From a virus, in the IMG/VR virus record IMGVR_UViG_3300044617_001891, positions 1 through 27,072 of that record: 27,072 bases of DNA, one strand, 5' to 3'. Of the stretch, positions 529-19,787 are shown one piece after another. The notes below the pieces were generated by a model. That model worked only from the letters and a program-made list of their open reading frames with translations. It searched no databases and was not told the origin of the DNA. Position numbers and translations under genes: made by a program. The first letter of the stretch is position 1; the number at the start of each line of letters is the position of its first letter.

Positions 529-1209
529 TCAAACTGCCACTGCTGGCGCCTGCTGTCGGAAGTATTTTACGCTGCATCGACAGTTCGCGCGGCATGCGCA
601 GCGCTGCCCAGGAAGCGGCACGCTGCCAATGGGAACCATGCCGCGAGCTGCATAATTTAGGCAATCCTGACAATGCTTTGCCTGAGAATCAAGAATACGC
701 CGCATCAAAGTGTATCCTTGTTTTTCTTGCCGAATACTAGCTCCTTCCCAAAAACTGCCGCGTACACTTTGAGCATATAGGCCGATGCGAGCAAGAGACT
801 GGGCAACAGAAACGCGACCGCCCAGAAGGTCATTAGCAAAATTCTGTAAGTAAGCATATTCCACACGGAGACGCTGCCCGATGCGCCCCCAGTCGGTAGC
901 CACCATTGCTTCACGTCCGCCATTGCCGATAATTGCCGCCTGTACATGGACAAGCTTAAGCGCTTCCCTTACGCTTCCTTGCCATTGGTCCAGCGTAATA
1001 TCGCCAGAGCCAAGCATACGTGTAAGACGCCGTAACTCAATACCAAGCCTGTTAATTCGACCATCCACCAATGCTTCCACTGCGCGAGCGCTGAGAAAAC
1101 GTCCATTGGCGCCGCGATACCTACCACTGATAGGGTCATAGCGCCAGGATGATTGATCAAAACGAGCAATGGCTTCGGAAAATTGAGAAAGATCATTGAG
1201 GCTGGACAT
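529..1209 (-). CDS. MuF-like minor head protein
   Basis: 226 residues. The C-terminal third carries a cysteine-rich pattern (HCQDCLNY, then a PLPGQRC turn, then CRANCRCSVKY) typical of the Mu gpF / SPP1 gp7 class of minor head proteins, which sit inside the capsid near the portal. The N-terminal part is mainly helical and has no other recognisable domain. It overlaps the portal gene by 17 bases and is followed after one base by the epimerase-like gene, giving the usual portal-then-MuF order. Assignment is by motif and position. Confidence 0.75.
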   Translation of the reverse strand: MSSLNDLSQFSEAIARFDQSSWRYDPISGRYRGANGRFLSARAVEALVDGRINRLGIELRRLTRMLGSGDITLDQWQGSVREALKLVHVQAAIIGNGGREAMVATDWGRIGQRLRVEYAYLQNFANDLLGGRVSVAQSLARIGLYAQSVRGSFWEGASIRQEKQGYTLMRRILDSQAKHCQDCLNYAARGMVPIGSVPLPGQRCACRANCRCSVKYFRQQAPAVAV

Positions 1210-3372: not shown

Positions 3373-3873
3373 ATGGACTGGTTGATGCCACTCACCTTTG
3401 CCTTCACTCCTGATCAGCGCCAACGGGCTCGTGATGAAGCTTTTCGCAGGCAGTCTCTCAACGAAAAGCAAGGCAAAAAAGGCAGGAACAATGGAGCGGA
3501 GAAAGGAGATTTAGCACTACGCCATCATTTACTCGGTGCTGCAGGAGAAATGGCGGTCGCAGTGATGCTTGACATGGAAGATAAGCTCTACCAAGAAACA
3601 GAGGCAAAACGTGGCTCTGCGGATCTTCCTCCAAATATTGATGTTAAAACTCGCTCTAAACATTATTACGATTTAATAGTGCAACTAGACGAAAGTCCAG
3701 ATAAGATATTGGTGCTCGTCACAATTGAAAACCGCATTACGCTTATCCATGGTTGGATAAAAGCCGCTGATGCGATGAAAGATCAATGGAAAAAAGATCC
3801 AGCGGGAGGGCGCCCTGCATATTTCGTTCCGAAGACTGAGCTATTATCTTTAAGCACCCTAAAGGCGTTATGA
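3373..3873 (+). CDS. PD-(D/E)XK nuclease-like phage protein
   Basis: 166 residues. A helix with GAAGEMAVAVML (Glu candidate) is followed by PPNIDVKTRS, a beta strand carrying the D-x-K pair of the PD-(D/E)XK nuclease fold, and then by LVLVTIEN and IHGWI strands. Such small proteins occur in phage genomes next to DNA-processing genes; the substrate is unknown. The gene begins the plus-strand operon and overlaps the GIY-YIG gene by the tetranucleotide ATGA at 3870-3873. A second ATG at 3385 could be the true start. No small terminase was found directly upstream of TerL, so a packaging role cannot be excluded. Confidence 0.6.
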   Translation: MDWLMPLTFAFTPDQRQRARDEAFRRQSLNEKQGKKGRNNGAEKGDLALRHHLLGAAGEMAVAVMLDMEDKLYQETEAKRGSADLPPNIDVKTRSKHYYDLIVQLDESPDKILVLVTIENRITLIHGWIKAADAMKDQWKKDPAGGRPAYFVPKTELLSLSTLKAL

Positions 3874-4607
3874 CGAAAGATCCTCGGCGCTTTTACGTTT
3901 ACGCATTCTTAAGAGAAAAAGACTCGGCGAATGGCAAGCGCGTGAGCCCCTATTACATTGGCAAAGGCAAGGATAATCGGGCATTTCGTAAACGTTATCG
4001 CGGAACTCGCCCACCAAAAGACAAGTCTCTGATTATCTTTATCCAAGAGGGGCTGACTGAAGAAGAAGCACTATCTCTTGAGCGATATTGCATTGCGCTT
4101 TATGGACGACTAGATCTTGGCACTGGAACTCTTCATAATCTCACCGATGGCGGAGAGGGCACTGTAATGCTTTCTCCTGAAATCAGGCGCAAATTATCGG
4201 AAGCGAGCAAGGGCCGTCGACATTCTGAAAAAACTAGGCGCAAGATGTCAAAATCAAGATCCGGACCAGGTAACCCAAACTATGGAAAAAAGGGGATGCC
4301 TAGCAGCTTTAAAGGTCGCAATCACACCGAAGAGTCGAAACGTAAAATTTCCGAAGCAAAGAAAGGGCGCAAGCAATCACCAGAGGAGCGTCGCATGAGA
4401 TCAGAATGCGCTCCGCCAAGGTATGAATATGAAGCAATCTCGCCTTCTGGTCAAGTTTTTATCGTGTATAACTTGGCCGCTTTTGCGCGAGAACATGGAA
4501 TGAAGCAGCACAATCTTGCGTCGGTTGCTAGGGGCAGGATTAAACAGCACAAAGGGTGGAAAATTAAAATCTTGAAAAACTTGAGGCAAGAAAATGCTGA
4601 AGTGTAG
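3870..4607 (+). CDS. GIY-YIG homing endonuclease with NUMOD3 repeats
   Basis: 245 residues. The N-terminus shows FYVYAFLR and PYYIGKGK, the two strands of the GIY-YIG catalytic domain, followed by an NLTDGGEG segment at its end. Residues about 105-170 contain repeated KLSEASKG, KMSKSRSG and KISEAKKG units, the NUMOD3 DNA-binding repeat of homing endonucleases. The C-terminus (FIVYNLAAFAREHG..LASVARGR) resembles a NUMOD1-type helix-turn-helix. It begins inside the stop of the previous gene and ends 14 bases inside terminase, so it looks like a free-standing endonuclease lodged between two operon genes without breaking either. No intron boundaries were recognised. Confidence 0.85.
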   Translation: MTKDPRRFYVYAFLREKDSANGKRVSPYYIGKGKDNRAFRKRYRGTRPPKDKSLIIFIQEGLTEEEALSLERYCIALYGRLDLGTGTLHNLTDGGEGTVMLSPEIRRKLSEASKGRRHSEKTRRKMSKSRSGPGNPNYGKKGMPSSFKGRNHTEESKRKISEAKKGRKQSPEERRMRSECAPPRYEYEAISPSGQVFIVYNLAAFAREHGMKQHNLASVARGRIKQHKGWKIKILKNLRQENAEV

Positions 4608-6432: not shown

Positions 6433-6508
6433 GCCTTCGTGGTGAAACAGGTAAACACGTCTAAACCCCGCTGCCGAAAGGCTTGCAGGTTCGAACCCTG
6501 TCGAAGGT
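6433..6508 (+). tRNA. tRNA-like element with a degenerate anticodon arm
   Basis: 76 bases. The acceptor stem GCCTTCG/CGAAGGT pairs along its length, the D arm GTG..CAC has GG in the loop, and the T arm GCAGG-TTCGAAC-CCTGT is canonical. Between D and T arms only 26 bases remain. They contain a GCC-GAAA-GGC mini-hairpin but no five-base stem with a seven-base anticodon loop, so no anticodon can be assigned. It is therefore a tRNA relic, a tRNA mimic, or part of the larger structured RNA just upstream. The HNH gene starts 41 bases downstream. Confidence 0.5.
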
Positions 6509-6548
6509 ATACGTTAAGATAGAGCAAATATGCGTTTACCAGTTCGAC

Positions 6549-7367
6549 ATGGCCGGCTTGAATTATTCGACCACGCAAATTGAAGAGGCAGTAAAAACTA
6601 GCAAAAGTCTTGCTGGTGTATTGCGAGCACTTGGTCTTTTGCCCGTAGGAGGAAATTACAGAACGATTAAGAAAAGGATTAAGGAATTAAATCTTGATAC
6701 ATCTCATTTCACGGGGAAAGCATGGATTCCCAAAGGCGCCGAGGTGAAAAAATTTGATGATTTGACTACAGCGCAAGCAATTAAAAAGCGTTTGATTAAC
6801 GAGCGCGGACACAGGTGTGAGTGCTGCCGAAAAGAAATGTGGCTAGGAGGTAAAATTATTTTGGAGCTAGATCATATAAATGGAGACAGGGATAACAATA
6901 GCCGAGAAAATCTTCAGCTACTTTGTCCCAATTGCCATGCGTTAACTCCGACTTACAGGGGCAAGAATATAGGAGAGAATGCAAAGAACCATCGGGCTGC
7001 GTGCCATCAAAGGCATCGTGAATTAAAGCTTGCTAGTGGCCAATACGCATACAAAGAGCAAGTCGAGTCAAACAAGAAAAAACAAGATAGCAGGCAGGGA
7101 CAAGAAAAGAAGAAGCGCCTCGCAAAAATTGCATCATGCATGAAATGCAACGTCCAAATTGGCAGTAACACAAAGACCCAAATGTGTGCTGATTGCTATC
7201 ACAAGTCAACTCGCAAAGCCGAAAGGCCAGCAATTGACATACTTATCAAAGAAATACAAAATAGCTCTTTTTTGAGTGTTGGCAAGAAATATGGAGTTTC
7301 CGACAATGCAATTCGCAAATGGCTCCGCATGGCCGGTATTGACCCCAGGGGCATCATGTTAAGCTGA
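6549..7367 (+). CDS. HNH homing endonuclease
   Basis: 272 residues from ATG 6549; a longer frame starting at 6483 would run through the tRNA-like element and is not preferred. The HNH domain reads CECCRKEMW, then LELDHINGDRDNNSRENLQLLCPNCHA, containing the zinc-binding cysteine pairs and catalytic His-Asn-His pattern. A second cysteine cluster (CMKCNVQIG..CADC) lies near residue 200, and a C-terminal helix-turn-helix (SVGKKYGVSDNAIRKWLRMAGI) probably recognises DNA. The organisation is that of free-standing phage HNH homing enzymes. It sits between the structured RNA and the riboswitch candidate. Confidence 0.85.
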   Translation: MAGLNYSTTQIEEAVKTSKSLAGVLRALGLLPVGGNYRTIKKRIKELNLDTSHFTGKAWIPKGAEVKKFDDLTTAQAIKKRLINERGHRCECCRKEMWLGGKIILELDHINGDRDNNSRENLQLLCPNCHALTPTYRGKNIGENAKNHRAACHQRHRELKLASGQYAYKEQVESNKKKQDSRQGQEKKKRLAKIASCMKCNVQIGSNTKTQMCADCYHKSTRKAERPAIDILIKEIQNSSFLSVGKKYGVSDNAIRKWLRMAGIDPRGIMLS

Positions 7368-7369
7368 AA

Positions 7370-7422
7370 GGACGTTCACCCCAGCAATGGGGCGCATGAC
7401 TCGCACGGTACGGAACGGGACC
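7370..7422 (+). promoter_or_regulatory. Candidate glutamine-type (downstream-peptide) riboswitch
   Basis: CGTTC (7373-7377) pairs with GAACG (7413-7417), enclosing a CCCC-AGCAAT-GGGG hairpin (7379-7392) and a conserved-looking ACGGTACGG segment. This matches the P1/P2 plan and the opening CGUUCACCC of the glnA / downstream-peptide RNAs known from cyanobacteria and their phages, although the internal core differs from the consensus I remember. It lies directly upstream of a short peptide gene, as downstream-peptide RNAs do. An overlapping 16-residue frame (7396-7446) ends in ATGA with the next start. Confidence 0.45.
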
Positions 7423-7442
7423 GCGCATCATCGGGAACCATC

Positions 7443-9747: not shown

Positions 9748-9817
9748 GGACAGCCCCAGGAATCGAACCTGGCATTCTGGGCTATCTGCCCAACGTGTAC
9801 CACAACACTTAACCGTC
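9748..9817 (-). tRNA. tRNA, identity uncertain (anticodon loop irregular)
   Basis: On the minus strand a full cloverleaf of 70 bases can be drawn: acceptor GACGGTT/GGCTGTC (three G-U pairs), D arm GTGT..ACAC with GG, anticodon stem TTGGG/CCCAG with loop CAGATAG, and a canonical T arm CCAGG-TTCGATT-CCTGG. The loop would give GAT (Ile), but base 33 is A instead of the near-universal T, and base 8 is A. CCA is not encoded. It may be a decayed tRNA or a different fold in which TGGGC-AGATA-GCCCA is the variable arm. Confidence 0.55.
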
Positions 9818-9837
9818 AGCAGCCCCTGGTTTGAGCA

Positions 9838-10069
9838 TCGTTGAGAGGCTTAGGGGCGAGGATCCGTCAAGCTTGCCAAATGGGTTGAGGGCTCACCAGT
9901 GGATCAATCTGGCGGGAGCGTCCTCCCGACCTGCAAACGCAGGATTTTACGCAAGCCAGGAAAGACACTCCACAACCAACGGTGGACCTTAGAACTGGCT
10001 GCACACTGCCGACAGAGCAGCAGTGGTGGTGGCCCGATGCAAAGCAGAGCGGGAACTCAACAAGCATAG
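9838..10069. other. Non-coding stretch with hairpins
   Basis: No convincing gene. A Cys-rich 66-codon minus frame exists but looks like chance. Stems CGGGAG-CGTC-CTCCCG near 9916 and CCTGC-AAAC-GCAGG near 9931 are visible. Since the tRNA follows on the minus strand, this may be the leader of a tRNA-containing transcript. Confidence 0.35.
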
Positions 10070-10103: not shown

Positions 10104-10676
10104 TTAACCTTCACCCCTGTCACTTAGGTAGATAACGGCTTGCTCTAGTGTACTAATCAAATCATTTGCATTGCCAAGCATTAAGTTGCATTTTTGGCAA
10201 AGCATGCCACGGACTTTCCCCGAAGCGTGACAGTGATCAACCACTAGCTCCCTAGTTTTCCTGTCTGACTCTTCCGCGCCACAAATTGCACACTTGTGAT
10301 CTTGGCTCTCTAGAAGACAAAGGTATTCCTCGTAACTGATCCCATAGTTACGCAACAAATAGGAGCTCTTGGCTTTAATGGGATCCCTCTTGGGCTTGTT
10401 TCCACTTGCGATCATTTCCGCATAGCGCCTTTGATCATATTCGCGCTTTGATTCGCGCCTTCTGCTGCGATAATGCTCAGCGTTGCCGTTGTAACGAGCC
10501 CTCGCCTTGGCATTGCCGCATTCCTTGCACCATCCCTGCCTACCCATCATTCCCTTGAGATGCTTTGCAAATTCCTCAAGGGGCTTAATTTCGCCACAGA
10601 CAGTGCAAGGGCGCCTGCCGTCTTGAATGATCGCTTTGCCCAGTGTGCGGCCATCGGGCCTGCGGGTGTTTCCCAT
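10104..10676 (-). CDS. Endonuclease VII-like HNH nuclease
   Basis: 190 residues from ATG 10674-10676; a longer frame to 10814 crosses a terminator and is rejected. An N-terminal zinc-ribbon-like region (CTVCGEIKPLEEFAKH..CKECGNAKARARY) is followed by CAICGAEES, LVVDHCHASGKVRGMLCQKCNLMLG, the hallmark of the recombination endonuclease VII family (T4 gp49 type), which cuts branched DNA. Many phages use such proteins as homing enzymes, so either role is possible. It has its own flanking terminators and is therefore an independent unit. Confidence 0.85.
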   Translation of the reverse strand: MGNTRRPDGRTLGKAIIQDGRRPCTVCGEIKPLEEFAKHLKGMMGRQGWCKECGNAKARARYNGNAEHYRSRRRESKREYDQRRYAEMIASGNKPKRDPIKAKSSYLLRNYGISYEEYLCLLESQDHKCAICGAEESDRKTRELVVDHCHASGKVRGMLCQKCNLMLGNANDLISTLEQAVIYLSDRGEG

Positions 10677-10723
10677 GTAATTTGCTCGTCCTGCTAATTG
10701 TAGTAAGTAAATAGCGTGGAGAA

Positions 10724-10746
10724 CAAAAGGCGCCCAAATGGGCGCC
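10724..10746 (-). terminator. Terminator after the NrdB-like gene
   Basis: GGCGCCC-AAAT-GGGCGCC, followed on the minus strand by TTTT. It lies 30 bases after the NrdB-like stop. Confidence 0.78.
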
Positions 10747-10776
10747 CTGCTATTTGGGAAGAGAGGCGAGGGGTCT

Positions 10777-11505
10777 CTAAGAATACATAGGAAGCGAGGT
10801 GTTCGGACTTTCAAAGAAACTAATCGCCCTGCTGTTCCTGCTCACTGCCATATCAGGAGCCTTGCCCGTCCAGAACAAGCTCTTCGACTGACGCAGCCAA
10901 AAATCCTTGTTCAGCCACTGATTAGACGATGCGCTGAGGTCATCAAAGAGCCAAGCAGCAGTGGCGGCACGAAGCTTGTCAAGGCTTTGGCTTTCTTTCT
11001 CGCCTAGCTCTTTGCTCACCATGGCATTGGCCACTGTGTGAACCCTTTCGTCCCTACTGATGTCTTGCGAAACAGTACGCATGCCAACGTCACCAGTTTG
11101 GCGAAAGAACGGAAGTGCCACAAAGAAAATAGAACGCTCCATGATGCCCGCCTTCAAAATGGGGTGGGCAGGATGTTCATTCCATGCCTTCAAGATGTTC
11201 ATCACTTCCTTTTCAGCCTTTTCATCTGTGCCATGAGCATCAGCCACATAGTTCAATGCATCCAAGTGGCGATCCTCATCCTCCTGATTGGAGCGAAGAG
11301 TTTCAATGATGCCAGGCGTCGAAGGAAGCTCACGCTGCATGCCTTGTTCCAAGAGATCCTTTACGGGAATCTCCAGATGGCGCAGCGCAAGCGCCTTGAA
11401 TAGCGTCGCCTCAGCTCCTTCAGTTACTTTCCCCTTGGCCACGGCAACGGGCTGCCAAGAGCGCTTCTTGGTAAGCAAATTGAGATAGGGGCTTGCAGCG
11501 GTCAT
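10777..11505 (-). CDS. nrdB: Ribonucleotide reductase small subunit-like ferritin-fold protein
   Basis: 242 residues from ATG 11503-11505 (a TTG four codons earlier is less likely). Two ExxH motifs, EDRH (in NQEDEDRHLDALNY) and ERVH (in ISRDERVH), plus the Glu of GIMERSIFFVALPFF give the dimetal site of an R2-like protein. Four residues after the first His, where the radical tyrosine normally sits, the residue is Leu; a Tyr lies two residues later. The protein is short compared with ordinary R2 (about 320-380). It follows the NrdA-like gene, supporting a class I reductase that supplies dNTPs during infection, perhaps with a non-tyrosyl cofactor. Confidence 0.78.
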   Translation of the reverse strand: MTAASPYLNLLTKKRSWQPVAVAKGKVTEGAEATLFKALALRHLEIPVKDLLEQGMQRELPSTPGIIETLRSNQEDEDRHLDALNYVADAHGTDEKAEKEVMNILKAWNEHPAHPILKAGIMERSIFFVALPFFRQTGDVGMRTVSQDISRDERVHTVANAMVSKELGEKESQSLDKLRAATAAWLFDDLSASSNQWLNKDFWLRQSKSLFWTGKAPDMAVSRNSRAISFFESPNTSLPMYS

Positions 11506-11561: not shown

Positions 11562-13007
11562 TCATTCAGCGCAGCTAGAACAAAAACCACCGTCTAATGA
11601 ACAACTTTCAGAAGCATTTTTGGCATCATCGTCGAAGCCAAACATGCTCTTGAAATCTTCATCGAGCGCGGCGTATGCGTCATCTTTACGCTGCATGTCT
11701 GGAAGAACTTGCAGGCTGTAATAGATGCTTGTCTGAGGAGATTCTAGCCAATCACGCAGGAATGTTTCATCGTAAGTGACCAAATCTCCCCAAGTATTCA
11801 TGGAATAACCATGGAAAAGACCAGTGCGTTGATAAAGAGAAACAATGCCATTTGCCACTTTGAAGAAAGTTTCCCATCCCACTTCAGCAGCAATTTCCAC
11901 TTCTCCATAGTCAAAGCTTTCCACGCCAAACGTGCCACTGTCGCGATCAACCATGCGCCCAATAGGAGGAGCAATTTCAGGGGCAGTGGTGAAACCACGG
12001 GAGTCGAGGTAGCGATAAGAGCATGATGCAGTGGGGGCGATGCAGAAGGCGCGTTCCATGCCATGCTCGCGAGCGATCTCAGCAGCGGCGCGAATGCCTT
12101 TGTCGAAAGCGTAGACGGCTTTTCCAGCCACGGTATCTGTCCAATGGTGAGACCAAGGATGGGGATCTTCAATTAAATAGGCTTCAAGAGCATCGCCAAA
12201 GTCTTTATAACTGATGCCATGGATGGCAAGAAAATTGGCTAGACCCAGCACGCCCAGGCCAATTTGTTTATCAATGGAAGGGGAAAGATATTCACCAGTG
12301 TCGCCAACGCCAGTATTGGGATGGAGATCAACTAGCTGTTGCATTCCTTCCGCGAACGCTCCTACAATATTGTCAATGGTGCAAGCACCAAGATTTACGT
12401 GCTGTAACAAGCAAGTGCCACGATGCTTTAGCCAAATCTCTTCACAAACATTGGGCCAGATACGCTCCCCTTTCGCATCAAAACGCTTCTTAGTTAGCCA
12501 CATATCACCATTGGCAATTGCCTTCAAAAGAGCGGCAATAAGCTCGGGCGATGCTTTATCTAGAAAATCATTATCAACAGTAATAGAGCGCTTCACCCAG
12601 GGAAGATCTTTGCGGGAAGCTTGAATAAATTTAATTGCGTCTGGATGGTCGTAATCAAGATGCAAAGTAACGGCGCCATTGCGAAATTGACCGCCACGAC
12701 GTAACACCTCGTTCAGCTTGCTGTAAATAGTCGCAAAGCTTACGGGACCGCTAGCCACAAGTCCTTTTCCATTGTCTTCACCTTCTGGGCGAAGCTTGGA
12801 AAGGTTTACAGCCGCTCCTGCCGCATTGCGAAGAGCATGAGAAACAAAACGCCACGACGCCTCAATTCCATCCGGTCCCTCCATTGAGTCTTCAACCACG
12901 AACGTTGTGCAGCTCACCGGGAGCCTGCTTTCAGGGCTGTCCATCCAATCTTGCACTCGCCCCGTCCGCGCGATCATCTCACTTTTAGCTTTTTCCTTGA
13001 ACGCCAT
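11562..13007 (-). CDS. nrdA: Ribonucleotide reductase large subunit, compact
   Basis: 481 residues from ATG 13005-13007; in-frame codons further upstream run through a terminator and are not used. Catalytic features: VSCTTF (first active-site Cys), WPNVCEEI (Asn-x-Cys-x-Glu radical site), RGTCLLQHVNLGAC (second Cys), APTASCSYRY (substrate loop), and CSSCAE at the C-terminus as the re-reducing cysteine pair. The N-terminal ATP cone and much of the N-terminal domain of typical class I enzymes (over 700 residues) are absent, so allosteric activity control is probably missing. Adjacent to the NrdB-like gene. Confidence 0.88.
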   Translation of the reverse strand: MAFKEKAKSEMIARTGRVQDWMDSPESRLPVSCTTFVVEDSMEGPDGIEASWRFVSHALRNAAGAAVNLSKLRPEGEDNGKGLVASGPVSFATIYSKLNEVLRRGGQFRNGAVTLHLDYDHPDAIKFIQASRKDLPWVKRSITVDNDFLDKASPELIAALLKAIANGDMWLTKKRFDAKGERIWPNVCEEIWLKHRGTCLLQHVNLGACTIDNIVGAFAEGMQQLVDLHPNTGVGDTGEYLSPSIDKQIGLGVLGLANFLAIHGISYKDFGDALEAYLIEDPHPWSHHWTDTVAGKAVYAFDKGIRAAAEIAREHGMERAFCIAPTASCSYRYLDSRGFTTAPEIAPPIGRMVDRDSGTFGVESFDYGEVEIAAEVGWETFFKVANGIVSLYQRTGLFHGYSMNTWGDLVTYDETFLRDWLESPQTSIYYSLQVLPDMQRKDDAYAALDEDFKSMFGFDDDAKNASESCSLDGGFCSSCAE

Positions 13008-13015
13008 AAGACAAC

Positions 13016-13037
13016 AAAAGGGGGTCAGCGCCCCCTT
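13016..13037 (-). terminator. Terminator between HNH-AP2 gene and nrdA
   Basis: GGGGG-TCAGCG-CCCCC, followed on the minus strand by TTTTG. It isolates nrdA from the upstream endonuclease gene. Confidence 0.75.
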
Positions 13038-13066
13038 GGAAATCAACAAGCACAAACTAGCATGGA

Positions 13067-13618
13067 TCAATCGGGCACGTCGTTCAAACTTGCAAATTCT
13101 CCATGATGCTTTAAGGCTGCCTCGTTGTAAGCTCGCGCCGCTTCAAGTTCGGAGTGAAAAGTCCCAATCCAAATGTATTTACCATCGGCTTGCATCTTGG
13201 CAATCCACCTTTGGCGCCTCTCGTTCCAATACACGCATTTGTAATTACTCGTGTACTTTGATTTTGACTTGCCGCGATTGCGCATGTTTTCCCTATGCGA
13301 TGCCTCGCGGAGATTTTCGATCACGTTGTGCTTTTCTTGTGTTTCAATGTGGTCAATAAAAATGTTGTCAATGTTTTTGCCCGTGGCTAGCGCGTAGATC
13401 AGTCGATGGACGTAATAGGCACGCTTTTCTCCGTTATAAGTAATATTGACGGTCCAATAGCGAGTCTTGGGCATATAAGAGCCCGCAACATCGCCTTGCT
13501 GCGCATTGACGGAAACGGTCTTATTGCGCCGTAAACCGCTAGGGCTCGTTTCGTCAACAACAAAAAGCTCGTGCAAATAATCGAGCGGAGGCAGTGGCCT
13601 GCGTGTTAGCTTTGCCAT
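13067..13618 (-). CDS. HNH endonuclease with AP2 DNA-binding domain
   Basis: 183 residues from ATG 13616-13618. The middle part (YYVHRLIYALATGKNIDNIFIDHIETQEKHNVIENLREAS in pieces: VHRLIYALATG, FIDHIETQEKHNVIENLREA) is the HNH domain of homing endonucleases. The C-terminal part (YKCVYWNERRQRWIAKM, YIWIGTFHSELEAARAYNEAAL) is an AP2/ERF domain, the usual partner in phage homing enzymes. It lies upstream of nrdA, a frequent target of such enzymes, but nrdA itself is intact from its own ATG. Confidence 0.87.
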   Translation of the reverse strand: MAKLTRRPLPPLDYLHELFVVDETSPSGLRRNKTVSVNAQQGDVAGSYMPKTRYWTVNITYNGEKRAYYVHRLIYALATGKNIDNIFIDHIETQEKHNVIENLREASHRENMRNRGKSKSKYTSNYKCVYWNERRQRWIAKMQADGKYIWIGTFHSELEAARAYNEAALKHHGEFASLNDVPD

Positions 13619-13719
13619 GTCATCTAGAGATAGTAGGTGGCCGGGAGCGAGACGCGCCAACGTCGTCGCTCCAACTATTCTAATGGCAAATTGCTCCTTT
13701 GTGTGAGCCGAACTCTGGC

Positions 13720-13965
13720 TCAGTCGCACAAATTTTCAGCGTCCTCGACGGAGAGCCTGTCCTTGATAAAAAGCTTTGCTTCATTAAGCGTACGGAAATA
13801 ATGAGGAGCGCCGTCTACTGCAGCGAACCATTGAAACTCAGGCTTGCTGAAACATGGCCATAGCTTATAGGGACCATAGTTAAATGGCTGGCGTTCTGGC
13901 AAACCAAACATGGGAATAGTCCGTAGTTTTACCACGCTAGTTCTTCTCATAAACTGCGCATGCAT
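13720..13965 (-). CDS. Hypothetical protein
   Basis: 81 residues; ATG at 13965 or an internal ATG (MRRTSV) 15 bases later. Aromatic-rich centre (FNYGPYKLWPCFSKPEFQWFAAVDGAPHYFRTLNEAKLFI) that resembles small cyanophage proteins with a beta hairpin and a terminal helix. No family assigned. Upstream lies an AT-rich TATTAAAT stretch that could hold its promoter. Confidence 0.6.
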   Translation of the reverse strand: MHAQFMRRTSVVKLRTIPMFGLPERQPFNYGPYKLWPCFSKPEFQWFAAVDGAPHYFRTLNEAKLFIKDRLSVEDAENLCD

Positions 13966-15057: not shown

Positions 15058-15306
15058 GTATAAATACTTAGAGGGTGAAAAAAGTAGATCATTTTTAATT
15101 CCACTTTTTGAGGAGGTATGCCCAGCCCACCACTGTACTACTGCCGTACTACTGCTCCCTAGTACGCCAGTACCATCAGCCATGCTTATGCCAAGCATAA
15201 GCAAAACTGTATAAAGAATTGTTGCAAAGTGTCGAAAACTGGCGCATGATTCTATATACTTTAGGTGCAGCAGAGATGCTGTAACGAACCTCGCAAACTC
15301 AAGGCT
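15058..15306 (+). other. Intergenic region with short repeats, a stem-loop and a 14-residue frame
   Basis: Contains GTACTACTGC twice in tandem (around 15135-15155) and a strong stem GCTTATGC-CAA-GCATAAGC at 15184-15202. AGGAGGT abuts an ATG at 15118 that opens a 14-codon frame (to 15162); the spacing is too tight for ordinary use. TATACT at 15255-15260 could be the -10 box for the next gene, but no good -35 box is seen. Confidence 0.35.
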
Positions 15307-15453
15307 ATGTCAATTGCAGACATGTTCGCTGCTCAGTTAGAAGAACTGAAGCGGCGAGATATTGAGTCACAGCGTCGCACTCAAGAATTAATCGAACGTT
15401 CACGCCGTTTGATTGAAGAACTAGAGGCGATAGATCTAGACTCAAAAGTATAA
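15307..15453 (+). CDS. Small coiled-coil protein
   Basis: 48 residues, MSIADMFAAQLEELKRRD onward, almost entirely charged helix with heptad-like leucines and repeated RR/EE pairs, predicted to form a coiled coil. ATG 15307 chosen; a GTG at 15265 would add 14 residues. It is the last ordinary-composition gene before the purine-rich block and has its own terminator. Confidence 0.6.
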   Translation: MSIADMFAAQLEELKRRDIESQRRTQELIERSRRLIEELEAIDLDSKV

Positions 15454-15458
15454 CAAAA

Positions 15459-15484
15459 GGCCCCTAAAATAGGGGCCTTCTTTA
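15459..15484 (+). terminator. Rho-independent terminator
   Basis: GGCCCC-TAAAATA-GGGGCC followed by TTCTTTATTTTTT. Closes the coiled-coil gene six bases after its stop. Confidence 0.88.
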
Positions 15485-15624
15485 TTTTTTATATTATGCG
15501 GCTATGCGCATAGGAGATATTCCCTCACAGCGGCCACTGACCAGGCCATAACTATAGGCAGGCACAGCGAAAGCCTGTCACCCTAGAGAGCAGCAGGCGG
15601 GGCTAGAAGGCGGGATAGAGAGGG

Positions 15625-15855
15625 CTAGCAGGGCGGGTAGCCGATCCTACGTAGGCGGGATTGAGAGGGGAGAGAGCGGAGGAGGAGGAGCCAGAGGCCA
15701 GGGAGGCGAAGGGAGAGGAGAGAGAGCCATCCTGATTCTCGAGAGCGCCATGAGGCGAAGCGAGCGAGGAGGGGGAGGCCAGGGGGAGGAGCGGAGCGGG
15801 AGACGATGAGGAGGGAGCGAGAGGAGAGGGAGGGGAGACGGTAGGAGCGGATCAC
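15625..15855 (-). CDS. Possible last gene of the purine-skewed block
   Basis: 76 residues from a GTG that overlaps the previous stop as GTGA. Composition is Leu/Ser/Arg/Pro-rich with no recognisable motif. A competing frame starts at ATG 15749-15751 and gives 34 residues, MALSRIRMALSPLPSPPW onward, ending at 15647. The sequence cannot decide between them, and either may be spurious. Confidence 0.3.
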   Translation of the reverse strand: MIRSYRLPSLSSRSLLIVSRSAPPPGLPLLARFASWRSRESGWLSLLSLRLPGLWLLLLRSLPSQSRLRRIGYPPC

Positions 15856-16073
15856 GAGAGAGGCTCCTCCTCAGTCTCTGAGGCCTCGAGGAGGAGCTCC
15901 TCTAGTTGGGAGATGAGGCAGGAGAGAGAGAAGGCACGAGAGGGGGAGGCTGTCTCGAGCTCTGAGAGTAGGGAGGAGAGCGCCTCCTCTGCCTCCTCGA
16001 GAGAAGCGAAGGAGGCGAGGCTATGGTTCACGCCGTATTCGTCAGGAGCGGAGAGAGAGAGGGGGAGAGCCAT
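15852..16073 (-). CDS. Hypothetical protein, homologue of the 19791-20024 gene
   Basis: 73 residues. It aligns without gaps to the protein encoded at 19791-20024: about 21 identities in 66 positions, including P4, S6-L7, D11-E12, G14-V15, L19, F22, C52, I54, Q56-L57, E59 and E63-A64. Many differences are conservative and follow composition (Asp to Glu, Ile/Val/Met to Leu, Lys removed). 54 of 73 residues are Leu, Ser, Ala or Glu and there is no lysine. Function unknown. The ATG follows a GGAGGCC hairpin on the far side of a pyrimidine-rich leader. The homology shows that this odd DNA encodes real protein. Confidence 0.75.
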   Translation of the reverse strand: MALPLSLSAPDEYGVNHSLASFASLEEAEEALSSLLSELETASPSRAFSLSCLISQLEELLLEASETEEEPLS

Positions 16074-16096
16074 GGGAAGGAGAGAGGAGGAGAGCG

Positions 16097-16114
16097 GGAG
16101 GCCTTGAGGCCTCC
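16097..16114. repeat. Intergenic hairpin 1 of the purine-skewed block
   Basis: GGAGGCC-TTGA-GGCCTCC, 7 perfect pairs, between the DUF7227-type gene and the next gene. No T run, so termination would be atypical; processing or protein binding is possible. Confidence 0.7.
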
Positions 16115-16129
16115 TTAGGGAGGAGCTTC

Positions 16130-17236
16130 TCAGATGCGAGAGAACCTGTAGGAGCCTCCTCCTGCCATGAGGCCAGAGTCAGGAGCGAGAGCGAAGCGAG
16201 AGGCCGCAGAAGGATCGGCTCCTCTTGATCGCTTGAGGCGGAGCAAGACGGCGAGGCCAGAGAAGCCAGGAGCGGGAGCGGGATCGAGCATCCTGAGATC
16301 ATTTGCATCCCCATCAATGCACTGGAGGAGAGCTTCTCTGCCTCTGTCATTGCGGAGGAGGAGGGAGCTCGGGAGCTCCTCTCCTTTGCTGGCCAGGATT
16401 GGAACCGCCAGAGAGAAGCCTGCCTCAACGGCATCAAGAGCGCGAGAGGCTCCTCCCTCACGATCAGCAGCGAGAGAGGCCGTTGTATGGATGCCTGCCT
16501 GTCTCATGGCCAGGAGGCCAGAGCGTCCGTACACGGGAGCCTTGGCATAATCGTAGAGAGAAAGGAAGGGGACAGATGCGAGAGCCTCAGGGATGGTGCG
16601 GATGCCCTGAGGGATAGGAGCGCCGAACAGAGCGGAGAGAGCCTCTGCCTCCTCACGAGAGAGGCGAACAGAGAGCCAGGCCTCCTGCCATGGGAGTTCT
16701 TGAGTGCCATTAAGGCGGAGCGCGAAGGGGAGGCCGAGACGGCGGGCCTTGCGATAGGAGAGGCCAGCCGCCCATAGGAGGGAGAGAGCGAAGGCCTCAC
16801 GATCAGCAAGGAGAGCAAGGGAGCGGCGAGCTCTGCAGGCTCCTACGCTCTGACTGATTCCCCCGTGGCCAGAGAAGGCGAGGCAAAGCTCCTGACAGGC
16901 CTCTGAGGCGAAGGGGCAAGCATTAAAGAGGAGAGCTCGAGCGGTGAGGCCTTCTCTGTCTGCCAGAGCGCGGATGCCAGGGAGCTCTCCTCTCACGGGA
17001 GAGGCATGAGAGCCAGGAGAGACGGCTCGAGCGAGGCCGCGAGAGGGGAGGAGATGGAGAATCGATGAGAAGGCGAGGCCGCTCCCTTTTGCGAGCTTTG
17101 CATTCGCGGAGCCTGACGTCAGAACAGAGTCTACGGAGAGCCCGAATCTAGAAAGGAGGGAGCGAACGCGCTCAGGAGCGCGAGGAGCGCGAGAGAGGCG
17201 AGCGGGAGCGAGAGGAGCCAGGAGAGCGGGAGCCAT
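16130..17236 (-). CDS. DUF7227-type conserved phage protein
   Basis: 368 residues with the motifs I know from this widespread phage family: SANAKLAKG near residue 46, LLFNACPFASEACQELC with three cysteines near residue 105 then SGHGG, ACRARRSLALLADREAF, FALRLNGTQELPW near residue 175, YDYAKAP near residue 232, and DGDANDLRMLDP near residue 325. The cysteine cluster may bind metal. Function unknown. The protein is Arg/Leu/Ser/Ala-rich where relatives use Lys, Ile, Asn and Thr, yet all the diagnostic motifs survive, so it is under selection. Its ATG lies about 35 bases after hairpin 2. Confidence 0.78.
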   Translation of the reverse strand: MAPALLAPLAPARLSRAPRAPERVRSLLSRFGLSVDSVLTSGSANAKLAKGSGLAFSSILHLLPSRGLARAVSPGSHASPVRGELPGIRALADREGLTARALLFNACPFASEACQELCLAFSGHGGISQSVGACRARRSLALLADREAFALSLLWAAGLSYRKARRLGLPFALRLNGTQELPWQEAWLSVRLSREEAEALSALFGAPIPQGIRTIPEALASVPFLSLYDYAKAPVYGRSGLLAMRQAGIHTTASLAADREGGASRALDAVEAGFSLAVPILASKGEELPSSLLLRNDRGREALLQCIDGDANDLRMLDPAPAPGFSGLAVLLRLKRSRGADPSAASRFALAPDSGLMAGGGSYRFSRI

Positions 17237-17271
17237 GAGAAGGAAGGAGAGAGGAGAGCGAACAGAGAGAA

Positions 17272-17291
17272 GGCCTCCCTATGGGGAGGCC
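17272..17291. repeat. Intergenic hairpin 2
   Basis: GGCCTCCC-TATG-GGGAGGCC, 8 perfect pairs, between the 17298-17537 gene and the DUF7227-type gene. On the minus strand it is followed by TTCTCTCTG. Confidence 0.72.
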
Positions 17292-17297
17292 AGGAGC

Positions 17298-17537
17298 TCA
17301 GGAGCGAGGGGAGCGGGAGAGCTTCTCAGCAGCATCGCAGGATGCAGCAGCAGCCAGAGCGAAGGATGCAGCAGCAGCAGAGGCGAACAGAGCGAAGGGA
17401 GCGGCGAAGGGAGCCGCTTCTCTAGCGGAGGGAGCCAGAGCAATGCGAGAGCCGTAGGTAGCGGTGCAGAGGCCGAACCCTACAGAGCCCGCGAACAGAG
17501 CGAGGGTAGGAGCGAGAGCGCGAACAGAGCGGAGCAT
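17298..17537 (-). CDS. Small Ala-rich, possibly membrane-associated protein
   Basis: 79 residues. The N-terminus MLRSVRALAPTLALFAGS continues as VGFGLCTATYG, which looks like a signal anchor or one membrane segment. The remainder is Ala/Phe/Ser-rich, ending in KLSRSPRS. No family recognised. It is flanked on both sides by GGCCTCCC hairpins, so it is a module of its own. Confidence 0.55.
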   Translation of the reverse strand: MLRSVRALAPTLALFAGSVGFGLCTATYGSRIALAPSAREAAPFAAPFALFASAAAASFALAAAASCDAAEKLSRSPRS

Positions 17538-17577
17538 GAGACAGAGAGCGAGAGGGAAGGAGAGCGGGAAGGAGAGC

Positions 17578-17597
17578 GGGAGGCCTCGCGGCCTCCC
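17578..17597. repeat. Intergenic hairpin 3
   Basis: GGGAGGCC-TCGC-GGCCTCCC, 8 perfect pairs, nine bases after the stop of the 17606-17722 gene. Confidence 0.72.
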
Positions 17598-17605
17598 TTG
17601 AGAGA

Positions 17606-17722
17606 TCAGAGAAGGGAGGAGCGGAGCGCCTGCCAGAGGCAGGCAACGCCGGCGTGATCGTAACGACCGCCGGAGCTCTGAGTGTTTGTGATGATCAGAG
17701 CGGAGATGAGATCAAGAGCCAT
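17606..17722 (-). CDS. Very small hypothetical protein
   Basis: 38 residues, MALDLISALIITNTQSSG onward, then RYDHAGVACLWQALRSSLL. Its residue range is wider (Thr, Asn, Tyr, His, Trp) than chance frames in this block, which supports a real gene. An in-frame ATG at 17759-17761 would add 13 residues. The shorter start is preferred because the shared TGCCAGAGACAATAG element then lies 39 bases upstream, almost the same distance as before the 18478-18852 gene. Unknown function. Confidence 0.5.
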   Translation of the reverse strand: MALDLISALIITNTQSSGGRYDHAGVACLWQALRSSLL

Positions 17723-17760
17723 GAGAGGGAAGCGAGAGAGCAAGGCGATCGCTCGCCTCA

Positions 17761-17775
17761 TGCCAGAGACAATAG
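17761..17775 (-). promoter_or_regulatory. Shared 15-base upstream element, copy 1
   Basis: TGCCAGAGACAATAG on the plus strand (CTATTGTCTCTGGCA on the coding strand), identical to 18888-18902. Each copy lies 36-39 bases before a gene start and next to a GGCCTCC-type hairpin. TATTGT could act as a -10 box. Confidence 0.45.
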
Positions 17776-17787
17776 GCGATATAGAGG

Positions 17788-17805
17788 GGGAGGCCAGAGC
17801 CTCCC
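17788..17805. repeat. Intergenic hairpin 4
   Basis: GGGAGGC-CAGA-GCCTCCC, 7 perfect pairs, between the 17839-18009 gene and shared element copy 1. It is in the position of a terminator for the upstream three-gene cluster. Confidence 0.68.
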
Positions 17806-17838
17806 GCTCCTCTTGAAATATTTCGCAACAAACGACCG

Positions 17839-18009
17839 TCAGAGATCGGAGGAGGAGAGCTCCTCGAGATCAGAGAGAAAGGCCTCGATCGTGGGAGACG
17901 GCAGCCACCTAGCGAGCTCCTCGAGGAGAAAGGGGAGGCCAGAGGAGGCGAGGCCGAGCTCCTCCGCGCGATCGAGGAGCCGAGCTCGTAAGTAGGAAGG
18001 GAGAGCCAT
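17839..18009 (-). CDS. Small helical hypothetical protein
   Basis: 56 residues, MALPSYLRARLLDRAEELG onward, then SSGLPFLLEELARWLPSPTIEAF and an acidic end. The sequence reads as two or three amphipathic helices with a Trp. It starts nine bases after the stop of the 18019-18195 gene, continuing a tightly spaced cluster. An AAGG in the leader could serve as a weak ribosome-binding site. No family recognised. Confidence 0.58.
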   Translation of the reverse strand: MALPSYLRARLLDRAEELGLASSGLPFLLEELARWLPSPTIEAFLSDLEELSSSDL

Positions 18010-18018
18010 GAGAGAGCC

Positions 18019-18195
18019 TTAGGAGGAGAGATCAGCAGAGCGAACAGAGAGAGGGAGCTCGGCACCTAGTGGGATGCCATGGCGAAGGCGAAGGAGGGAG
18101 CGCCTCTCACGGAGGAGGCGCTCCTCTGCCTCTCCTGAGAGGCGAGGGAGGAGGCGCTCGATTGTGGCGAGGCGCCTCTCGAGAAAGGAGAGCAT
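18019..18195 (-). CDS. Small helical hypothetical protein
   Basis: 58 residues, MLSFLERRLATIERLLPRL onward, a long charged amphipathic helix (coiled-coil-like), then HGIPLGAELPLSV. It starts nine bases after the 18205-18402 stop, the same spacing as to the next gene, which supports a translated cluster. No family recognised. Confidence 0.57.
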   Translation of the reverse strand: MLSFLERRLATIERLLPRLSGEAEERLLRERRSLLRLRHGIPLGAELPLSVRSADLSS

Positions 18196-18204
18196 GGCAG
18201 AGCC

Positions 18205-18402
18205 TCAGGAGACGGGAGAGAACAGAAGGGAGAGGAGCTCCTCGAGCGCCTCCTCTCTGTCAGCTCGAGCCTCAGGAGAGAGCGAGGGGGAGGAGAGCTC
18301 CTCCTCGAGCTCGCGAGCAAACAGAGCGGCCTCACGACGAGAGGAGAAGGAGAAGCGAGGCCAGGAGAGATCAGAGGCGAGGAGTTCGTGAGTGGGAGCC
18401 AT
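18205..18402 (-). CDS. Small hypothetical protein
   Basis: 65 residues, MAPTHELLASDLSWPRFSF onward, then RREAALFARELEEEL and a Leu/Glu-rich helix. The aromatic motif SWPRFSFSS followed by a helix is not what random GA-rich DNA would give. First gene of the three-gene cluster, starting 43 bases after hairpin 5. No Shine-Dalgarno sequence; the leader is pyrimidine-rich. Confidence 0.58.
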   Translation of the reverse strand: MAPTHELLASDLSWPRFSFSSRREAALFARELEEELSSPSLSPEARADREEALEELLSLLFSPVS

Positions 18403-18444
18403 GGGAGCGAGAGCGAGAGAACAGAGAAGGAAGGAGAGGAGGGA

Positions 18445-18465
18445 GGCCTCCCTTGAGGGGAGGCC
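18445..18465. repeat. Intergenic hairpin 5
   Basis: GGCCTCCC-TTGAG-GGGAGGCC, 8 perfect pairs, between the 18478-18852 gene and the next. Confidence 0.72.
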
Positions 18466-18477
18466 AGAGGCAGAGCC

Positions 18478-18852
18478 TCAGAGGAGGCCGAGACGAGATG
18501 CGCGGCGAAGGAGAGCGGAGCGGGAGGCCTTCGCCAGAGCGGGAGCTTTCTCTCCTGCCTCTGTCAGAGCCTCGATCAACAGAGCGCGAGGAGAGGAGGA
18601 GGAGAGAGGCTCTGGCAGAGCGGAGGCGAGGCGCTCGAGCGAGGAGGCTACAGAGCGAAGGAGAGGAGCGAGACGGCCTCGAGCCTGCCAGAGACGAGCG
18701 GTGAGAGCATGGCAGAGAGCCAGAGAGAACAGGAGCGCCTCGAGAGCCTGAGAGGCGATCGCCTCCCATGGGAGAGAGGAGAGCGCCTCGATCAAATCAG
18801 AGAGAGGAGGGAAGGAGGGAGAGGCAGAGCCTCTGAGAGAAGGGGAGAGCAT
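18478..18852 (-). CDS. Hypothetical helical protein heading the purine-skewed gene set
   Basis: 124 residues. After a Ser/Pro-rich start, the centre (DLIEALSSLPWEAIASQAL, then EALLFSLALCHALTARLWQARGRL) is strongly amphipathic to hydrophobic and could associate with membranes; the end is Ala/Leu/Arg-rich. No family recognised. It is the first gene transcribed from the side of the GATC cluster. Upstream are hairpin AGGCC-TCGC-GGCCT (18874-18887) and shared element copy 2. Confidence 0.55.
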   Translation of the reverse strand: MLSPSLRGSASPSFPPLSDLIEALSSLPWEAIASQALEALLFSLALCHALTARLWQARGRLAPLLRSVASSLERLASALPEPLSSSSPRALLIEALTEAGEKAPALAKASRSALLRRASRLGLL

Positions 18853-18887
18853 GAGAGCCAGAGAACAGAGAGGAGGCCTCGCGGCCT

Positions 18888-18902
18888 TGCCAGAGACAAT
18901 AG
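18888..18902 (-). promoter_or_regulatory. Shared 15-base upstream element, copy 2
   Basis: Exact copy of TGCCAGAGACAATAG, 36 bases before the ATG at 18850-18852 and abutting a short GC hairpin. See copy 1. Confidence 0.45.
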
Positions 18903-18954
18903 AAAGAAGGAGAGGAGGAGCCAGAGGCGCGGAGCCGTATTGTCACATCTCTTA

Positions 18955-19115
18955 ACATCAGGATCATGATCATGATCAGAGCGGGATCGTGATCATGAGA
19001 GAGAGCGAGAGCCGATCATGATGAGGATCCCCATCAAAGCGCCATCGTGATCATGATCGTGATCAACCGAGAGTGTGATCATGATCAGTAGCGTGAATGA
19101 TCATGATCATGGCCA
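18955..19115. repeat. GATC/TGATCA palindrome cluster, candidate replication origin or control site
   Basis: Fourteen GATC sites fall between 18962 and 19108, many six bases apart in GATCATGATC or GATCGTGATC runs (18962-18977, 18985-18994, 19049-19064, 19077-19086, 19099-19108). There is no gene here. The density resembles Dam-rich origins such as bacterial oriC, and TGATCA is itself a palindrome able to bind dimeric protein. It lies exactly where the strand-skewed block ends and just before 23-bp tandem repeats. Origin function is inference. Confidence 0.6.
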
Positions 19116-19266
19116 GTATCTGCTACGGATACGTATCAGTATCAGTCAGGATATCAGCACACAGCCCTATGTCAGCGTCTCCTGACATGCGTGTATGCGC
19201 ATATGCGTGTAGGCGCATAGAAGCATGAGCGAGGCCGAAAATGGGGGGCTGGGGCGGCTCCTAATA

Positions 19267-19334
19267 TACCGCATTCTGCTTAGTCCCCATACCGTCTTTC
19301 GTTTAGTCCCCTTACCGCGTTTCAGTTTGTTTTC
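19267..19334. repeat. 23-bp tandem repeats (iteron-like)
   Basis: Units start at 19267, 19290 and 19313. Each begins TACCG, followed by eight variable bases, then TTAGTCCCC and A or T; the third copy is degenerate in its second half. Regular 23-bp phasing is about two helix turns, as in initiator or repressor binding arrays. A related TTAGTCCCC occurs at 14134. Confidence 0.65.
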
Positions 19335-19491
19335 ACCAGCCATGGCCATCAAAAGCCGCCTTTAGGGCGGCTTCTTCGCTGGCAAACGGTCCTCCTACAA
19401 AGCTTTCATCATCATCAGCATAGAAATACCAACCTTCAACAAGTTCTGTACCTTTGCAGCAATCTTCAGAGAAGAAATCTACGAGAATCAT
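19333..19491 (-). CDS. Small acidic hypothetical protein
   Basis: 52 residues, MILVDFFSEDCCKGTELVEG onward; acidic and aromatic-rich (GWYFYADDDESFVGGPFASEEAALKAAF). It overlaps the previous stop by ATGA, fixing the start at 19489-19491. The ending pattern (F.se.eAl.aa) resembles small cyanophage proteins of unknown role. Confidence 0.6.
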   Translation of the reverse strand: MILVDFFSEDCCKGTELVEGWYFYADDDESFVGGPFASEEAALKAAFDGHGW

Positions 19492-19787
19492 TTCATTACC
19501 TGCTGAAGCCTCTTCCACAGCCATTGCTCTTTGGTATCGGGACGCATCAGCTCGTAGCCATCGTGATCAATGATGGCATCACCAGCGCTGTCTATGTAAC
19601 CTTCAACGTCCCTGCGCCAGATGCCCCTGCAAGAGCCTTGCTGGTCAAAGACGGCAATAATGTCTTCCCGATCCTCCATCGCTTGCCTGACGTGGAAGAG
19701 AAGGTCTCTCAAACGGGCCGCTTGGTAGCGGCCTCTAGTGGGAGGGAAATACGGGCCGTTGTCTTGATAAGTGGAAATGGTCAGCAT
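19488..19787 (-). CDS. Hypothetical protein
   Basis: 99 residues, MLTISTYQDNGPYFPPTRG onward; mixed alpha/beta with many aromatic and acidic residues. No family recognised. It starts three bases after the 19791-20024 gene and overlaps the next by ATGA, so the three form one translation unit. Confidence 0.62.
   Translation of the reverse strand: MLTISTYQDNGPYFPPTRGRYQAARLRDLLFHVRQAMEDREDIIAVFDQQGSCRGIWRRDVEGYIDSAGDAIIDHDGYELMRPDTKEQWLWKRLQQVMK

Follow-up and report, generated by a model that had tools for sequence, protein, structure and literature searches.

We examined a stretch of viral DNA of 27,072 nucleotides (IMG/VR record IMGVR_UViG_3300044617_001891, positions 1 to 27,072; hereafter the window), the whole of a record from a relative of Synechococcus phage S-CBS4, whose portal gene is 74% identical in DNA. 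Our subject is a minus-strand operon in which seven or eight small conserved genes surround one GP88-family gene (PF17338), written in DNA that is exceptionally dense in the trimer CTC and its complement GAG (Table 1). A first-pass annotation, made from the letters alone, had described a sharply bounded purine-rich block at 15520-18955, and its description of the composition was borne out. The purine fraction is 0.658 over these 3436 bp compared to 0.502 elsewhere in the record, and in a sliding-window check other windows of the same length ranged from 0.472 to 0.541, with none above; the count of 52 purines among the 60 bases at 15661-15720 was exact. On the plus strand GAG occurs at 125.4/kb in the block and 16.2/kb outside, and the guanine-plus-cytosine (GC) content is 61-65% within the block and 42-51% in adjoining windows. 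The edges are as abrupt as had been claimed, both transitions falling within ~250 bp. The feature is thus confirmed and unusual, and its cause is narrowed rather than settled by the analyses below.

The claim that real minus-strand proteins survive inside the block also held: genes a, b, c, d, f, GP88, g and h are ordered and stop-free in up to 20 relatives. Hairpins precede GP88, gene a and gene b, and each is followed by a CU-rich leader and then an ATG; no Shine-Dalgarno sequence was seen in these three leaders. The bias covers the predicted transcription unit, which begins with the gene a leader and closes with the bidirectional terminator-like hairpin, and stops at the operon edges. A PADLOC search for defence families with six cassette proteins gave zero matches.

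Table 1. Features of the window (L-numbers denote loci or contigs of relatives; aa, amino acids; pN/pS, nonsynonymous to synonymous ratio)
Feature	Position	Strand	Remarks
Word-biased operon	15585..19027	-	Maximum-scoring trimer segment, edges approximate; CTC on coding strand, GAG on plus strand
Gene a	18478..18852	-	124 aa, first gene; 18 relatives; pN/pS 0.41; 27 loci
Gene b	18205..18402	-	65 aa; 12 relatives
Gene c	18019..18195	-	58 aa; 12 relatives
Gene d	17839..18009	-	56 aa; pN/pS 0.24, the strongest purifying selection among the small genes
Open reading frame e	17606..17761	-	51 aa; doubtful gene, only 2 partial matches
Gene f	17298..17537	-	79 aa, small hydrophobic membrane-like protein; 14 relatives
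GP88-family gene	16130..17236	-	368 aa, modelled as TIM-barrel-like; C-x6-C-x3-C with all three Cys invariant
Gene g	15852..16073	-	73 aa, Glu/Leu-rich, fast-evolving; 9 relatives
Gene h	15625..15855	-	76 aa, Leu/Ser/Arg-rich; 17 relatives; also L084, L110
GGCCTCC/GGAGGCC hairpin	17272..17291	-	Precedes GP88
Similar hairpins	18874-18887; 18434-18452	-	Before gene a; before gene b
Bidirectional terminator-like hairpin	15455..15481	.	Operon 3´ end; same place in L006, L084 by eye
Convergent 62-aa gene	15265..15453	+	Not biased, boundary marker; homologues in L006, L013, L084
rnr (ribonucleotide reductase)	11562..13070	-	Conserved right neighbour; control gene, no significant word preference
Left neighbour gene	19488..19787	-	99 aa, conserved; homologue at S-CBS4 record end
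TGATCATGATCA repeats	18957..19141	.	Upstream of operon, outside bias
Tandem ~23-bp iteron-like repeats, CGGTAWRGGGACT-N9-10	19270..19320	-	Only beside the cassette in the relatives' sequence examined
Palindromes	15130-15175		Cassette-flanking
LexA-like match	15161		Confirmed by pattern
Portal gene	1193-3298	-	DUF5872 domain in C-terminal part
Homing-type endonuclease/endonuclease VII genes	3870-4607; 6483-7367; 13067-13729; 10104-10814		On the cassette-side arm
Glutamine-II riboswitch (RF01704)	7370-7426	+	Just downstream of HNH-like open reading frame
tRNA-Ile (GAT)	9748-9817	-	
abiF RNA (RF03085)	9821-9857	-	Above gathering score; adjoins tRNA-Ile

The main gene matched Pfam PF17338 at 39.4 bits (cut-off 24.4, E = 7.9e-10) and also phrog_1617 (PHROG 1617). 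Residues C107, C114, C118, Y228, Y230, K232, G309, D310, D313 and R315 are invariant across 20 sequences, and the invariant cysteines and the YDYxK and GDxxDxR motifs are common to the family, jumbo-phage homologues included. Between closer pairs, the ratio of nonsynonymous to synonymous divergence (dN/dS) is ~0.12-0.2. The structure model has a pLDDT of 86.7; Foldseek returned nothing from the PDB at E <= 0.001, a PDB sequence search gave no match, and the best VIA-align match, a viperin-like protein at Z 5.8, was below a meaningful level and was not used. Membership in the radical S-adenosylmethionine (SAM) enzymes of the viperin or PqqE kind is not supported: CxxxCxxC is missing, the cysteines of GP88 being spaced x6 and x3, and the fold match is weak. 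A literature search on PF17338 and on word preferences of this kind found nothing usable.

Of the 34 IMG/VR contigs with a relative of GP88, 29 hold a close one (59-92% identity over full matches) and five a distant one (24-26%). All 29 close contigs carry the biased segment, up to 4 kb long and sharply edged, with several cut by contig ends, and share a coding-strand make-up of A 0.09-0.14 and C 0.36-0.43. The recurrence of the same block in these contigs excludes an assembly chimera, one of the two findings that, by the first-pass annotation, would overturn it. No biased segment was found in the five distant contigs, and distant GP88 members generally (24-34% identity; L031-L035, L074, L107, L118, L137) lie in ordinary DNA; the family as such does not carry the word preference, hereafter the dialect. 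Its occurrence in closely related genomes therefore depends on the distance considered: it is always present at a GP88 identity of at least 59%, and at ~50% another word set takes its place.

In S-CBS4-like cyanosiphoviruses the block occupies a variable locus, as a GP88 operon, or cassette, that can be exchanged. With the left neighbour gene as a locus marker, carried by 80 contigs, cassette presence was patchy even where the neighbour gene is 92-97% identical. S-CBS4 has homologous rnr and left neighbour genes in the same order across its record ends; it is without the cassette, and the neighbour gene (record end) and rnr (record start) almost adjoin. GP88 is much closer between phages than rnr, as in the L006-L009 pair, where GP88 has a dN of 0.08 and rnr a dN of 0.31; this indicates that the cassette has been exchanged horizontally. 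A nucleotide search of the block against known phages gave no match.

Several observations show that the bias acts on a word rather than on codons. The third base of fourfold degenerate codons depends on the base that opens the following codon: GCN before C takes T in 89% of cases, GCN before T takes C in 84%, and GGN before G takes A in 45%. This context dependence, measured gene by gene, reaches z-scores of 6-10 in block genes compared to 0.4-2.8 in rnr; pooled mutual information, high in rnr too, was dropped because it is inflated by related genes. Since the third base depends on the next codon, adaptation to codon or tRNA supply was rejected. A conditional (logit) model of synonymous choice ranked CTC first (1.77), CCT second and GAG third. 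Under shuffles holding the protein and the codon counts, CTC and GAG both reached z 14.3 (z 12.8 for the pair in the window alone), which means that neither composition nor codon use nor the demands of the proteins account for the excess of the word, and that it is preferred in both orientations.

GAG is enriched on the pyrimidine-rich coding strand too, at an observed-to-expected ratio of 5.5, so the bias is one of a word and not only of a strand. The purine richness of the plus strand is owed at least in part to the ease with which CTC fits Leu, Ser, Ala and Pro codons. Intergenic DNA inside the block shares the vocabulary and is polar as well, with GAG at 139/kb and CTC at 18/kb on the plus strand, which codon writing does not explain. 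The first-pass annotation had proposed a strong, local and strand-specific force. A strong local force at the level of the nucleic acid stands; strand specificity is a secondary matter, given the equality of CTC and GAG with protein and codon use fixed and the lack of strand asymmetry at two loci described below. The word CTC/GAG is the primary signal and the strand bias is secondary. In two long relative contigs the dialect is limited to the cassette.

Sister cassettes at the same site provide a comparison. The loci L084, L083, L071, L134 and further ones carry GP88 operons that are ~50% identical to ours, partly in the same gene order, with a GC content of 61-71%. Leu is written CTG rather than CTC in these operons, Ser as AGC and Ala as GCC; under codon control they favour CTTTG/CAAAG, CCCTG, CTGG and GCCC, and avoid CTC, GAG and GCTC to varying degrees. 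Gene d is also found in the other-dialect cassettes L084 and L110, and look-alikes of gene f were noted, by eye only, in L113 and L084. At L080 and L113 the main genes are different and no GP88 was detected, and CTC/GAG and AGA/TCT are favoured; CTC and GAG are about equally enriched, so the strand asymmetry is absent. The low-GC cassettes L074, L107, L118, L137, L070 and L072 showed no dialect above controls.

In place of GP88, L080 (6225-8161) and L113 (9736-11511) encode a pair of unknown proteins of ~250 and 270-296 aa, rich in Glu, Ser and Leu; the L113 copies had no Pfam match. The portal gene of the window, for its part, has a milder word preference (AGC/GCT z 6.7, GAGC/GCTC z 6.7 under codon-preserving shuffles).

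We also followed synonymous changes, polarised by an outgroup and with expectations matched for the type of base change, in the CTC/GAG GP88 lineage (L1) and in the ~50%-identity GP88 lineage with other words (L2). In L1, CTC/GAG was gained 22 times (8.9 expected) and lost 50 times (82.6 expected; p = 1.3e-8), and per opportunity its gains were 4.7 times as frequent as its losses. The sign was reversed in L2, with 13 gains of CTC/GAG (27.3 expected) and 17 losses (4.2 expected; p = 6.3e-11). L2 gained its own words, listed from static counts in the same sequences, 18 times (5.1 expected) and lost them 38 times (75.6 expected; p = 5.6e-13). The corresponding changes in rnr revealed no significant word preference (p = 0.07). 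The dialect has been maintained over a GP88 synonymous divergence (dS) of ~0.3 to 1.5. Together with the preceding results, these data show a current force that is specific to the cassette lineage, reaches over codon borders, affects genes as well as intergenic DNA, and works in both orientations.

The account we favour, tentatively and at somewhat less than an even chance, is that an exchangeable GP88 operon is kept dense in CTC/GAG by a word-specific force on the nucleic acid. We infer that this force is selection rather than mutation because at a single locus, with the backbones closely related, its sign differs between cassettes, and because it has the precision of a trimer. A putative sequence-specific factor would read words along the operon DNA or its transcript, and a cassette would gain by matching the words of that factor, or by being free of the words of a rival type; its dialect would thereby be a self-label. 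The factor might be encoded by the cassette, or be a nuclease, modification enzyme or binding protein of phage or host. GP88, a weakly radical-SAM-like TIM-barrel protein by its model, is a candidate only. Protection from a nuclease or restriction system, one of the causes first suggested, is possible. A more specific proposal, which we consider rather unlikely, is that mutually exclusive dialects are self-labels of cassettes by which the factor separates its own cassette from a rival, with synonymous selection opposite in sign.

Several points weigh against word-specific selection on a GP88 operon. L080 and L113 use the word of L1 without its main gene, which weakens GP88 as the setter of the word, and the word reader itself is putative. 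In L1 the absolute losses of the word (50) exceed the gains (22), reflecting either a slow decay of the dialect or an undercounting of gains by parsimony. Finally, derived changes find slightly better matches elsewhere in the block than controls do (mean rank 0.585 +- 0.022), although word selection predicts the same.

This last result is in line with the main rival, a self-reinforcing local mutational process (cryptic simplicity) in which short-patch template switching or gene conversion copies whatever words are already common, and the dialect drifts without any reader. The words are indeed lineage-specific and present in both orientations, long repeated words exceed an order-4 Markov expectation (at k = 12, 186 vs 116 +- 25 in the window), and derived changes cluster within 6 nt (163 vs 95). 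However, changes are clustered in rnr as well (369 vs 259), and such a process does not readily account for trimer-level precision, nearly constant protein lengths, a bias that ends with the operon, or one word common to gene sets without a common main gene. We judge it improbable, though it is the rival to be taken most seriously.

Selection on the transcript, by which an RNase or RNA-binding protein of phage or host, or translation initiation, would favour CUC-rich, A-poor mRNA, with the CU-rich leaders and intergenic hairpins involved, appears more doubtful still. Consistent with it, the biased segment matches the transcription unit as predicted, skipping the upstream regulatory repeats and the convergent gene, and the genes behind hairpins have CU-rich leaders. 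But with codon use controlled the preference for GAG equals that for CTC, and the two are about equal in L080 and L113. Nor is folding consistently favoured, as a requirement for DNA or RNA structure, also raised at first, would lead one to expect: codon shuffles gave gains that were small or opposite in sign between cassettes (z -1.7, -1.8, -4.1 and +2.1), and dinucleotide shuffles of the coding strand gave z -0.8 and -0.4 (flanks -0.4 and -0.3).

There is little to recommend a fading relic of a recent donor. A GC content of 63-70% in a 48% phage, movement of the cassette between phages and its patchy presence would all suit this explanation. Plain recent acquisition, as first suggested, does not fit although the cassette is exchanged horizontally, since word-creating synonymous changes are still favoured, and the dialect persists over the GP88 divergence given above. 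A single scan across 84,980 species of bacteria and archaea uncovered no close GP88, PLSDB plasmids contained none, and INPHARED held distant ones only.

That transcription or a replication origin exposes one strand to mutation here is very improbable as the cause: the cumulative GC skew has its minimum at the block in two long contigs, partly caused by the block itself, and iteron-like repeats adjoin it, but the word occurs in both orientations, L080 and L113 have no asymmetry, adjoining non-coding DNA shows none of the bias, and origin-linked exposure cannot explain the opposite preferences of alternative cassettes at one spot, the polarised changes in L1 and L2 effectively refuting it as a sole cause. 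In sum, exposure at an origin, adaptation to tRNAs, folding of the mRNA and mere foreign descent all fail to fit.

The DNA around the cassettes has features of its own. Many cassettes have iteron-like repeats immediately on their 5´ side, and these repeats, with the skew minimum, make a replication origin near the cassette possible. Tandem repeats of 22-24 bp are found upstream in the window and at L083 8880-8960, L113 8490-8580 and L084 4370-4430; they are of a GGTAWAGGGACT or a GACCCGGCTAG type depending on the cassette, the type being independent of the dialect. T7-like promoters were considered for the TATAGGGACT repeats and rejected, as these are found only beside the cassette and iterons or regulator sites are likelier. 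Flanking palindromes, in the window and at L036 6300-6345, L084 4455-4700, L083 8985-9010 and L113 8665-8700, resemble host operators, namely cyanobacterial LexA-box-like AGTACNNNDGTACT and Fur-box-like GAGAATNATTCTC. Clusters of TATGCGCATA and TGATCATGATCA were also seen in cassette-flanking regulatory DNA. Elsewhere in the window, homing-type endonuclease genes (NUMOD3, HNH_3, AP2-HNH) and endonuclease VII crowd the cassette-side arm, and an abiF RNA beside tRNA-Ile and a Glutamine-II riboswitch were detected.

Chi of RecBCD, KOPS of FtsK, DNA uptake sequences and the cyanobacterial HIP1 are words of ~8-12 bp with a genome-wide distribution. The block resembles them in that a short word stands far above chance at the DNA level, often polar and inside genes too, but its word has only three bases and is restricted to a single operon of 3-4 kb, at whose site alternative operons prefer other words. 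With cryptic simplicity it shares a locally repetitive, lineage-specific vocabulary; in contrast to cryptic simplicity, its proteins are under strong purifying selection, words are gained synonymously, length changes are few, and the edges fall sharply at the operon ends.

The cassette offers a clean natural case in which the synonymous sites of a phage follow a short nucleic-acid word and not codon or tRNA needs; sister cassettes at that site have the opposite preference, and a neutral neighbour gene serves as internal control. Should selection be the cause, some factor would read trinucleotide density along an operon, for which we know of no precedent; should it be mutation, the cassette would bring its own local, word-specific mutator.

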